Assembly: GCF_017939705.1 (NCBI RefSeq)
Contig: NZ_JAGKSQ010000002.1
Coordinates: 372,001 to 436,000 of the forward strand
Source of the DNA: Halalkalibacter suaedae
GTDB lineage: Bacteria > Bacillota > Bacilli > Bacillales > Bacillaceae_D
DNA: 64,000 nucleotides
Direction of reading: 5' to 3'
Position 1 is the first letter of the stretch. Each line of letters starts with the position of its first letter. The position numbers and the translations under genes are program-made. Under the pieces are notes generated by a model. That model did not search any database and was not told where the DNA came from. It worked only from the letters and a program-made list of their open reading frames with translations. Below, piece after piece: positions 9,462 to 43,075 of this stretch.

Positions 9462-9865
9462 ATTTAAGCATTCAGGTGACCGCTGCACGCATTGCGTGTA
9501 GAGGAAAGTCCATGCTCGCACGGGCTGAGATGCCCGTAGTGTTCGTGCCTAGCCAATTCATAAGCTAGGGTAGTCTGGTTTCGACTGGACTAACGGCAAG
9601 GGAAGCACCTACGTCTTTTATAGATATGGTGTTCTACCTTTGAAAGTGCCACAGTGACGTAGTCCATTTGGAAACGAATGGAGTGGAACGCGGTAAACCC
9701 CTCGAGCGAGAAACCCAAATTAGGTAGGGGCATCTTCTCTAATGGAAATGAACAAATGAGAAGGACAAGAGTGATCTTGTAGATAGATGGTTGCCACCGG
9801 AGTACGAGGTTCATCACCGTTTGCAGTACTAAGGTACAAAACATGGCTTATCGAATGCTTAAATG
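9462..9865 (+). ncRNA. rnpB: RNase P RNA, Bacillus (class B) type
   Basis: The catalytic RNA of RNase P, which matures tRNA 5' ends. Near-identical blocks to B. subtilis RNase P RNA are present: GAGGAAAGTCCATGCTCGCA, GAGATGCCCGTAGTGTTCGT, GAAAGTGCCACAGTGACG, the P4-region GGAACGCGGTAAACCCCTCG and ACAAAACATGGCTTA near the 3' end. Helix P1 is formed by TTAAGCATTC (9464-9473) and GAATGCTTAA (9853-9862), which fixes the ends. Length about 400 nt is typical. Confidence 0.97.
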
Positions 9866-38441: not shown

Positions 38442-40106
38442 CTATTGATCTAAAATCAATTTATTAACAGCACTGAACAGGGCTTTAATCGATGAAGTCA
38501 TAATATCGACGTCTATTCCACATCCCCAGTATATGGTACCAGATTCGTTTGTAATACCGACATAGGAAACTGCCTTCGAGTCGGAACCAGTTCCCAACGC
38601 ATGTTCCTTATAAAGTAAATTTGAATAGCTAATATTCAATTGACTTTGAATGACCTGGCTAATCGCATCTAGTCGTCCATTACCTATGCCGGTAAACTCA
38701 TGAATGACTCCATCCTTTTTCACTTCAATCATCGTTTCAAATTGCTCGCCACTTTTGAATGAATAATCAATGAACTGAATTGGTTTATTTAGGTTGATAT
38801 ATTCCTGCTCAAAAATTGTATATATTTCAGCAGAACCTAGCTCCTTATGCAAATGATCGGAAATTGATTTCACTCTATAGCCAAAGCTCTCCCGCATTTG
38901 AATAGGCAGATCAAGACCATAAGTTTGTTCTAGGATATACGCAATGCCACCTTTACCTGACTGACTATTAATCCTAATAATATCTCCTTCATACTCTCGA
39001 CCAATATCGGTTGGGTCGATTAAAAGATATGGTACATTCCAATATGGTTCAGCATTGTCCTCTCTCCATTTAATCCCTTTTGCAATCGCGTCTTGATGAG
39101 AGCCAGAAAATGCAGTGAAGACCAACTCGCCGCCGTATGGATGTCGTTCTGGTACTTTCATTTTTGTGATTCGTTCGTACACCTTTAAAACGTCTGGAAT
39201 TCGTTCGAAATTCAGCTCTGGATCAATGCCGTGTGAATATAAATTCAAGGCAAGTGTCACAATATCAACATTTCCAGTCCGCTCCCCATTGCCAAATAAC
39301 GTCCCTTCCACTCGGTCAGCTCCTGCTAACATCCCAAGTTCAGCATCAGCAACACCAGTCCCTCTGTCATTATGAGGGTGAATAGACAAAATGACATGCT
39401 CCCTATACTTTAAATGCTCACTCATATACTCAATTTGGCTTGCATAGACGTGTGGCATCGAAAGCGAGACCGTTGCAGGGAGGTTAATGATCACTTCATT
39501 ATCTACTCCTGGTTTCCAAACATCTAGGACCTGATTACAGATATCAAGTGCAAAATCAATTTCTGTTCCTGTAAAGCTTTCTGGTGAATATTGAAAGGTG
39601 AAGTCACCTTCTGTTTCCGCTGCACAGCTAGTTAATAATTCCGCTCCAGAAACCGCAATCTGAATAATCTCTTCTTTTGATTTCTTGAACACTTGTTCTC
39701 TTTGTGCAACAGAAGTCGAATTATACAAATGAACCACTGCTTTACGGACACCCTGTAACGCATCAAACGTTTTCCGAATAATATGCTCTCTCGATTGAGT
39801 TAACACTTGTACTGTGACGTCTGCAGGTATTAAATCTTGTTCAATCAATGTTCGTAAAAAGGTAAATTCAGTCTCTGAAGCAGCTGGAAAGCCAACTTCA
39901 ATTTCTTTAAAGCCTAGGTCAACTAATAACTGAAAGTACTCAAGCTTTTCTGCTAAGTTCATTGGTACAATCAAAGCCTGATTGCCATCCCTTAAATCAA
40001 CACTACACCATTTTGGTGCCTTTGTTACATATTCCTTCTCCATCCATTTCATGCTAGTCTTAGGTGGCATGAAATAGCTTCTAGCATATTTGTTATAGTT
40101 TTTCAT
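38442..40106 (-). CDS. leuA: 2-isopropylmalate synthase, LeuA2/fungal type
   Basis: A ~554-residue enzyme that condenses acetyl-CoA with 2-oxoisovalerate, the first step of leucine synthesis. HMGL-like barrel with SVDLRDGNQAL near 38 and the metal motif SIHPHNDRGTG near 240, then the C-terminal leucine-regulatory LeuA dimer domain. This longer type differs from B. subtilis LeuA and is usual in actinobacteria and some bacilli. I start at ATG 40106; ATG 40115 is one nt from the Shine-Dalgarno. No other leu gene follows. Controlled by a leucine T-box. Confidence 0.95.
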   Translation of the reverse strand: MKNYNKYARSYFMPPKTSMKWMEKEYVTKAPKWCSVDLRDGNQALIVPMNLAEKLEYFQLLVDLGFKEIEVGFPAASETEFTFLRTLIEQDLIPADVTVQVLTQSREHIIRKTFDALQGVRKAVVHLYNSTSVAQREQVFKKSKEEIIQIAVSGAELLTSCAAETEGDFTFQYSPESFTGTEIDFALDICNQVLDVWKPGVDNEVIINLPATVSLSMPHVYASQIEYMSEHLKYREHVILSIHPHNDRGTGVADAELGMLAGADRVEGTLFGNGERTGNVDIVTLALNLYSHGIDPELNFERIPDVLKVYERITKMKVPERHPYGGELVFTAFSGSHQDAIAKGIKWREDNAEPYWNVPYLLIDPTDIGREYEGDIIRINSQSGKGGIAYILEQTYGLDLPIQMRESFGYRVKSISDHLHKELGSAEIYTIFEQEYINLNKPIQFIDYSFKSGEQFETMIEVKKDGVIHEFTGIGNGRLDAISQVIQSQLNISYSNLLYKEHALGTGSDSKAVSYVGITNESGTIYWGCGIDVDIMTSSIKALFSAVNKLILDQ

Positions 40107-40139
40107 TATGTTCATACTCCCCTTTATCTAATATAAATA

Positions 40140-40390
40140 AAAAAAGCCCATCATCTCTTAAGAGACGACAGGCTTGAACCTTCGTGGTACCACTCTTGTT
40201 GATTTGTTTATCCTAAAACAAATCCACTCTAAACCGATTACGGGGTTAATCGTTAAGGCCTGTGATAGCCTTACCACTCACGGATGAGTTGGGGAGTCTA
40301 TAGACTGTCTCTCACCAAAACGACAGCTCTCTGAACAATAGAGGATCCTTAATACTTCCGATCATTGTGTTTATTGAAATATTTGAATTT
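40140..40390 (-). promoter_or_regulatory. Leucine T-box leader
   Basis: A tRNA-sensing transcription-attenuation leader. On the minus strand the T-box sequence AAGAGTGGTACCACGAAGG (40200-40182) precedes a terminator AAGCCTGTCGTCTC/GAGATGATGGGCTT with T7 ending near 40140. Stem I holds AACTCATCCGTGAG, nearly the same as the specifier region of the B. subtilis ilv-leu T-box; the specifier codon CTC (Leu) is at 40288-40286. Uncharged tRNA-Leu(GAG) should permit read-through into leuA. Confidence 0.95.
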
Positions 40391-42138: not shown

Positions 42139-42912
42139 TTACTTTTTCTCATTTGAAGTGCCAGGAATAACACAGCCTTCAGGACTACAAACTAAATCCT
42201 TATTTAATAAAGCTTCCTCCGTCTTTTCCTTTTCTAGCTGTTTTTGTTGCCATTCAATGTCAATCGTTGGTGAAAATTTCTCAGGATGCCGGATGTACCA
42301 TCTCTGCTTCCTGATTAAGAAATTATCTGCATTAAGTAATAAAGCTTCATCCAATTCTTTTAAAGCTTCTTCAATTTTATCATTATTGTAATACTCCATT
42401 CCCAACTTGAACTTGGTCTGTGAAAGCTGCTTTTCAAGTGCATTAGTTGGATTGGACGGGTTAAAATAGTGATCATCTAATTCTACTTTTTCAACTTCGT
42501 TAAAAAGTAATGTTCTAACAGCTTCTATATGATCTGTATTAGAAACTTGAAAGCCTTGTTTAATTAAGCGAATGACACCTGCTTTGTCAATGAAAATACC
42601 ATTCGGGACAATATTGAAGTTAAACAAATTGGCAAGCTTATTTTCAGGATCAACAACAGTTGTAAAGGAAAGATCTTCAGAATATGGCTTCGCTACATCA
42701 GCACCTTGAATATCAACAGAAACGGATAAAATTTCAAAATCTTTATGTTTATATTTTTCATAAAATTCCTGCCACCCTGGCAGTTGATCTCTACAACGTC
42801 ACCAAGAAGCCCACATAAATAGTAGCGTGTTTTTTCCTTGATAATCATTAATTGAGACTTCTTTTCCATCTAAATCAAAAAGTTGAACAGTTGGCATCTT
42901 TTGTAATAACAC
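42139..42912 (-). CDS. TlpA/redoxin-like selenoprotein with TPR and C-x4-C tail
   Basis: Read through one in-frame TGA (42801-42799, codon 38) this is a 257-residue protein. Residues 6-150 are a thioredoxin/TlpA-type redoxin: PTVQLFDLDGKEVSI, then FMWASW-U-RCRDQLP where TGA replaces the first active-site Cys, then VSVDIQGADV and IVPNGIFIDKAG. A TPR-like helical part follows (KFKLGMEYYNNDKIEEALKELDEA), and the end is LVCSPEGCVIPG. GTG 42912 has AAGGAGGGA at good distance, so the full frame is the real gene; the ORF starting at 42627 lacks the active site. Spacing here is U-x-C rather than U-x-x-C. A SECIS-like hairpin follows the TGA. Confidence 0.85.
42769..42801 (-). promoter_or_regulatory. 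Bacterial SECIS element candidate in redoxin gene
   Basis: TGA at 42801-42799, then 21 nt to the loop of hairpin CTGCCA-GGG-TGGCAG (42783-42769). Distance (16-37 nt) and a G at the start of the apical loop meet the published bSECIS pattern. Confidence 0.75.
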
Positions 42913-43075
42913 TGTATCCCTCCTTTTTAGCTTTAGTTTACTTTATACAGTTATTTTAAACCAATCATCTGCTTCCATTCCATCGACTAGTACCATGTAA
43001 TCATAATAAAGAATGCATGAGGCCTTAACAATAGACAACAATAAGAAGTAATAGAGAACGAAAGGAGAATCGATT

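Follow-up and report, generated by a model that had tools for sequence, protein, structure and literature searches.

A redoxin-like gene interrupted by an in-frame TGA

The window analyzed here is a stretch of 64,000 nucleotides from Halalkalibacter suaedae (NCBI RefSeq assembly GCF_017939705.1, contig NZ_JAGKSQ010000002.1, positions 372,001 to 436,000 of the forward strand). Its minus strand carries a predicted selenoprotein gene with the following features, numbered from the first letter of the window:

42139..42912, minus strand: predicted selenoprotein gene, 257 codons plus TAA (read-through translation, Pfam matches and 34 homologues including the window gene)
42919..42924, minus strand: Shine-Dalgarno sequence AGGAGG with a 6-nt spacer to the GTG start (from the sequence)
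42799..42801, minus strand: TGA codon 38, predicted U38, the first residue of U-R-C (TGA in 34/34 homologues; ResA-like alignment)
42769..42783, minus strand: putative SECIS stem-loop CUGCCA-GGG-UGGCAG, starting 15 nt after the TGA, with its apical loop 21 nt after the TGA
42139..42627, minus strand: truncated 162-aa ORF with a TTG start (standard-code ORF list)

The frame opens with GTG at 42912-42910 and closes with TAA at 42141-42139. The TGA at codon 38 is the sole in-frame stop before this TAA, and the read-through translation places it in the context FMWASW-U-RCRDQLPG. A preliminary description of this DNA had reported a strong ribosome binding site at the GTG start, a single frame broken only by the TGA, and a standard gene call reduced to the C-terminal part of the protein, and each of these observations is borne out: AGGAGG (42924-42919) lies 6 nt upstream of the start, codon 38 alone interrupts the 257 codons, and the standard code yields only the 162-aa ORF (42139-42627), which is an annotation artefact if the TGA encodes selenocysteine (Sec). 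A purine-rich site also precedes the equivalent start in all seven full-length homologues from named genomes (see below).

Two structured RNAs were found elsewhere in the window. A T-box leader (40158-40374, minus strand; 104.9 bits) lies just upstream of a 557-aa gene (38442-40115) that is presumably related to 2-isopropylmalate synthase, and a bacterial RNase P class B RNA occupies 9468-9855 on the plus strand (330 bits).

Conservation of the TGA codon and distribution of the gene

A scan of named genomes returned 10 loci, comprising seven full-length homologues (59 to 75% identity; from Aquibacillus, Bacillus pinisoli, Cytobacillus, Pontibacillus, Litchfieldia, Bacillus canaveralius and Melghiribacillus), two fragments and one distant Bacteroidetes match. 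All seven full-length homologues have TGA at codon 38. A search of the order (E 1e-25) matched 31 of 397 genomes at 33 places, and 30 of these genomes contain a full-length gene. All but one of the 33 matches hold one TGA, three of these 32 also taking in a TAA or TAG that is the gene end, and the remaining match (G085) is a C-terminal fragment. The family search (E 1e-20) and the phylum-wide draw (E 1e-25) recovered only the window's own genome, out of 41 and 398 genomes, respectively. Given the few matches in these two draws, the distribution of the gene is patchy.

Removal of identical copies left 34 distinct full-length genes from Bacillales, the window gene included. Every one of them carries TGA at this codon (codon 38 in 32 genes and codon 39 in two), within the motif F-[MV]-W-x-S-W-U-[RK]-C-R. 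Three members (L033, L040 and L042) that were missed by the first motif vary at x or further on, and L042 has Ser in place of Pro in LPGW. Residues W34, S36, W37, C40, R41, W47, D67 and P103 are identical in all 34. The preliminary description had envisaged that resequencing might change the TGA; because 33 other distinct homologues share the same codon, a sequencing error is very unlikely.

The query of the order search carried Cys at position 38, so that Cys forms were not penalized or missed for that reason, and no close Cys homologue was found at E 1e-25 in the 397 genomes of the order or in the 398 genomes of the phylum draw. Use of the C-terminal 107 residues as the query, which makes the search blind to the TGA (E 1e-6, 397 order genomes), likewise returned no Cys form; the 34 places in 32 genomes correspond to the same 32 copies, the G085 fragment and a short fragment in G212. 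Weaker relatives are ResA/TlpA-like proteins, of which three were seen to have CxxC, while 11 plasmid records reach at most 36% identity and match the redoxin part only. Thus, the Cys-containing homologues that had been proposed as a check exist as ResA-like relatives, which align a Cys with codon 38, but not among the full-length members of the family (0 of 34).

Relics that keep the C-terminal part of the gene occur in Cytobacillus oceanisediminis (L024), Fictibacillus nanhaiensis (L025) and G085 (L059). The redoxin part of L024 and L025 has been deleted or swapped for unrelated sequence, and L059 resembles L025; the replacing sequence in these last two is taken here to resemble a decayed IS3-type transposase. 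Another locus, L056 (G346:C1:689657-690322), is a diverged second copy with 43% identity that keeps U-R-C and lacks the C-terminal two-Cys motif described below, and it possibly represents a second subfamily.

No conserved operon partner was found within about 5 kb on each side of the gene in the window and at ten other loci (L017-L023 and L056-L058). None of the neighboring genes is common to more than two of these 11 neighborhoods, the only group of three being a frame that runs antisense to the selenoprotein gene. A neighboring gene that we take to be DUF421-like is common only to the window and L020 (Pontibacillus).

A covarying stem-loop downstream of the TGA

The hairpin with a GGG loop that had been noticed 15 nt after the TGA was found at 42783-42769. 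It has a 6-bp stem and a free energy of -8.7 kcal/mol for its 21-nt core. The 47-nt fold of the window sequence (-11.3 kcal/mol, z = -2.03) was equaled by 9 of 200 shuffles and is weak evidence taken alone. The hairpin conforms to the bSECIS model as quoted in PMC13188914 (stem of 4 to 16 bp, loop of 3 to 9 nt with G in the first two loop positions, loop located 16 to 37 nt after the UGA, and MFE of at most -7.5).

The comparison of homologues is more informative. At offset 18, all 34 distinct full-length genes are able to form a stem of 5 bp closing a 5-nt loop; among the 3500 combinations of offset and loop that were scanned, the next best, shifts of the same stem aside, is possible in 14 of 34. 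Since the stem region encodes L-P-G-W-Q, protein conservation could account for part of this pattern, but not for the silent sites. The Leu codon of the basal pair is CTG in 27 of 34 genes, against a CTG share of 10% among the Leu codons in the rest of these genes, and the Gln codon is CAG in 29 of 33, compared with 40% of Gln codons elsewhere. The two choices are coupled (CTG/CAG 27, TTG/CAA 4, TTG/CAG 2 and CTG/CAA 0; Fisher p = 0.0004, a value that, like the co-occurrence p-values below, overstates independence because the sequences are related). In one homologue Gln is replaced by Glu, and its CTT/GAG codons still form a wobble pair. The four TTG/CAA cases belong to four different families (f3, f8, f15 and f20), a spread that argues for repeated change; one of them is the second copy in G088, whose other copy has CTG/CAG.

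Among 32 distinct segments, five cells are changed on both sides of the stem, a number reached by none of 500 shuffles. Six of 500 shuffles attain the values observed for doubly changed pairs (2) and additional pair types (4). Pairing is retained in 94.3% of cells, against 20 to 74% for slid partners; the control slid by -1 has more two-sided cells (11 versus 5), yet only 31% of its cells pair. In all 32 segments, the loop triplet consists of GG or GU and one further base. Loss of the apical A-U pair in 11 of them enlarges the loop to 5 nt, with G in second position. Four of the 34 homologues have a 21-nt core whose free energy does not reach -7.5 kcal/mol, and the minimum-energy fold of the 45 nt counted from the TGA lacks the stem in five of 34 (L020, L028, L035, L046 and L052), all of which have TTG.

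On either side of the TGA, third codon positions vary most in every segment. Relative to the window gene, the segment before the TGA shows more replacement than silent changes (519 versus 326), a count to which little weight is given, as it relies on one reference and saturated distances. No SECIS shape common to this gene and the genome's three further TGA-containing genes was seen, the hairpins there being differently shaped. Altogether, the comparison of sequences identifies the stem-loop after the TGA as a predicted bacterial SECIS element that is under selection.

Selenocysteine machinery and other selenoprotein genes

The search for selA, selB, selC and selD proposed in the preliminary description found all four genes in the 4.32-Mb assembly (30 contigs). 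Contig C29 encodes SelB (358.8 bits, above the curated cut-off), SelA (562 bits) and a tRNA-Sec with the anticodon UCA (selC; 60.2 bits versus a gathering score of 47). SelD (413.7 bits) is encoded between selB and selA and contains G-U-G-C when read through its own in-frame TGA, and an Rdx/SelW-like protein with CMMU is also encoded between these two genes. A peroxiredoxin with TPVU read through a TGA (L005:1252-1794, minus strand; G000:C22), located about 110 kb from the window gene on the same contig, is probably another selenoprotein gene of this genome. Thus, the genome contains at least four TGA-containing candidates, the window gene included. The only formate dehydrogenase alpha-like match is without an in-frame stop and scores below the cut-off (600.3 versus 666.25 bits).

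The sel cluster (L015; G000:C29:88000-106000) comprises selC, selB, ABC transporter genes, selD, the SelW-like CMMU gene and selA. The transporter is of the phosphonate/selenate type, with 166 bits for TIGR04553 (below the cut-off of 250) and a score over the cut-off for TIGR01098, and because of its location between selB and selD it could be a selenium-oxyanion importer.

The family co-occurs with SelB, which scores over the cut-off in all 31 matching genomes, compared with 179 of the 397 order genomes overall (hypergeometric p 4e-12, or 1e-11 for the 30 genomes with a full-length gene, relatedness ignored).

Two explanations of the TGA other than Sec were weighed against these data. The codon could be a true stop, in which case the locus would be a pseudogene or would encode a 37-residue peptide and a separate 162-residue TPR protein. 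Standard ORF calling does yield the 162-aa ORF, and relics do exist in related genomes (L024, L025 and L059, as well as the short piece in G212); however, the same TGA is present in 34 of 34 genes, the protein is conserved on both sides of it, a covarying stem-loop follows, and the homologues do not conserve the internal start from which the 162-aa ORF is called, their standard-code ORFs opening at different residues. A true stop is therefore highly improbable. Even less credence is given to a TGA read as Trp or another amino acid through a suppressor tRNA or a reassigned code. TGA is read as Trp in some organisms and a tryptophan directly precedes codon 38, but neither TGG nor any other sense codon replaces the TGA in any of the 34 genes, and TGA ends 7 of the 39 mechanical ORFs of at least 200 aa in the window as well as homologues L047 and L049. 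Moreover, the genome encodes SelB and a tRNA-Sec whose anticodon is UCA, and a stem-loop would be anticipated with Sec insertion but not with suppression. The selenoprotein reading put forward in the preliminary description is thus supported by the TGA in all 34 genes, the covarying stem-loop, the Sec machinery and the position of the codon at the redox site (see below); on the basis of comparative genomics, the window gene almost certainly encodes a selenoprotein.

Domain architecture and active site

The N-terminal part of the protein (residues ~4-123) is a redoxin domain that matches AhpC-TSA (PF00578; 67.9 bits, cut-off 26) and Redoxin (PF08534; 51.2 bits, cut-off 26.6). It is followed by a TPR-like region (~158-208). 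The fusion to such a region, already pointed out in the preliminary description, is weak by Pfam alone, TPR_2 at 168-197 scoring 20.3 bits against a gathering cut-off of 27, but it gains support from a profile match to consensus TPR proteins over residues 154-198 and from helices at 158-176 and 180-193 in the structure model. The protein ends in a two-Cys motif, C242-S-P-E-G-C247 (CSPEGC). This tail reads C-G-P-[ED]-G-C in 29 of 34 homologues, and both Cys are present in 32; the first is Arg in L051 and the whole tail is missing in L056, which indicates that the C-terminal Cys pair is not essential in all members.

The U-R-C motif lies at the ordinary redox site of the fold. When three ResA-like proteins encoded in the same genome are aligned with the window protein, its W-A-S-W-U-R-(gap)-C lies over the W-A-S-W-C-E-P-C that one of the three contains; U38 thus corresponds to the first and C40 to the second Cys of CxxC, one missing residue turning the spacing into UxC. 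The alignment with PDB 2l5o likewise sets U38 and C40 on both Cys. The TGA therefore occupies the first redox-active position, as had been proposed. The residue after U is Arg in 33 homologues and Lys in one. All three ResA-like proteins are extended at the N-terminus by a segment containing a hydrophobic stretch, whereas the window protein starts directly at the domain, so that the selenoprotein is probably cytosolic. The structure model is of mediocre confidence (mean pLDDT 64.9), with residues 36-45 and 239-257 under 50, values too low for the C-terminal tail to be placed. A fold search with this model ranks DsbE, ResA and StoA structures first, and peroxiredoxins appear from rank 31 on.

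Predicted function and mechanism

The explanation that best accommodates these observations is a cytosolic Sec-containing ResA/TlpA-like oxidoreductase with a TPR-like region; it is considered very probable as a whole, with the selenoprotein claim weighing most. For its activity, a disulfide reductase or oxidoreductase (selenol-disulfide) function is moderately favored by the fold and active-site alignments. In such a mechanism, SelB with Sec-tRNA(Sec) would bind the stem-loop 3' of the UGA, and Sec would be inserted at codon 38 instead of termination. The Sec38 selenolate would attack an oxidized substrate, such as a disulfide, a mixed disulfide or a comparable electrophile, and Cys40 would resolve the intermediate by forming an Se-S bond next to Pro103, an invariant residue that presumably corresponds to the cis-Pro of thioredoxin folds. 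Either thioredoxin or the C-terminal Cys pair, serving as an internal relay, could then reduce this bond, and the TPR-like region would probably dock a substrate or partner. The relay role of the Cys pair is put forward only tentatively.

A peroxiredoxin-like peroxidase, that is, a selenoprotein reducing peroxides rather than acting as a disulfide oxidoreductase, is unlikely. Selenolates are good peroxidatic groups, AhpC/TSA is the best Pfam match (67.9 bits) and peroxiredoxins are among the fold matches, but only from rank 31 on, with DsbE, ResA and StoA above them. PxxxTxxC/U is absent from all 34 homologues, none of which has Pro at position -7 or Thr at position -3 (position -7: Ile 30, Leu 3, Val 1; position -3: Ala 30, Ser 2, Pro 1, Gly 1), and a separate TPVU peroxiredoxin is encoded in the same genome. 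Alternatively, a metal(loid) or a selenium species might be bound or passed on by Sec and the C-terminal Cys pair, in place of any catalysis of thiol exchange. The C-x4-C arrangement of the tail would be a plausible soft-metal site, and metal binding is predicted for a share of selenoproteins in PMC13188914; against this, none of the 11 neighborhoods revealed a conserved metal-related neighbor, and U-x-C occupies the place where a ResA-like fold normally carries its redox motif, which leaves this alternative with a small probability, lower than that of a peroxidase.

A more far-reaching version of the oxidoreductase reading is a selenium-obligate family with no Cys form in the genomes searched, in which a cytosolic redoxin, with a three-residue UxC selenenylsulfide and an internal CGPxGC dithiol relay on a TPR-like arm, would carry out a reaction beyond the reach of thiols. 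It is regarded as rather doubtful, somewhat more so than the relay itself. On this reading, genomes would sooner part with the gene, of which relics remain, than replace its Sec with Cys. With no Cys form in the searched genomes, the family offers an opportunity to test why certain proteins depend on Sec. In addition, the 32 distinct SECIS segments with compensatory silent pairs constitute a natural series for the SelB code of Bacillales. The locus also illustrates how standard ORF calling shrinks a redoxin-TPR selenoprotein to a truncated TPR protein.

Comparison with known selenoproteins and thiol oxidoreductases

Three selenoprotein families were counted in Bacillales by Zhang et al. 2006 (PMC1794560), and with the window family this order would gain a further one. 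The literature searched yielded no published description of the window family, and nothing on it was found in the excerpts of PMC9312934, PMC5029168, PMC1242214 and PMC12013277. Table 1 of PMC13188914 (a 2026 catalogue of 119 families/subfamilies that gives no taxa) has no entry naming a UxC redoxin with a TPR-like region; its broad entries 'Prx-like thiol:disulfide oxidoreductase' and 'UGC-containing TlpA' could be stretched to cover the window family. No NCBIfam model reaches its cut-off on the window protein.

The preliminary description had stressed that U-x-C differs from the common U-x-x-C. The spacing here is indeed UxC and not UxxC, but it is not unprecedented: 'Prx-like (UGC-containing)' selenoproteins have been listed since 2008 (PMC2398784), and a 'UGC-containing TlpA disulfide reductase family protein' (cd02966) is among the entries of PMC13188914 Table 1. 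The small Brachyspira thioredoxin-like selenoprotein Sec.2 (PF13192), which has Cys homologues (PMC5330540), also has UxC but belongs to a different Pfam family. Sec peroxiredoxins (TxxU) resemble the window family in their AhpC/TSA superfamily and in having Sec at the nucleophile position, but the window family is without their peroxidatic motif PxxxTxxU (PMC13188914).

The window family shares with ResA, StoA and TlpA the fold, the redoxin-domain sequence and the position of the active site. It differs from them in having UxC instead of CxxC, in the absence of an N-terminal extension and in its C-terminal TPR-like region; ResA itself is marked by CxxC and an N-terminal membrane anchor, and its model gives the window protein 70.6 bits against a cut-off of 170. 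A close likeness is to the UGC Prx-like/TlpA selenoproteins and to NF041054 'WAxxUGC_long', which are of the same fold class and whose W-A-x-x-U-x-C pattern, as in the model name, is shared. NF041054 is the best NCBIfam match (108.6 bits versus a cut-off of 300) and covers 112 of 354 profile positions, in the redoxin part only. Compared with these proteins, the window family has Arg or Lys, not Gly, after U and adds a TPR-like region and a two-Cys tail. Selenoproteins with UxC/UGC in this fold class had been described before, so that the novelty of the window family is that of a family, not of a kind.
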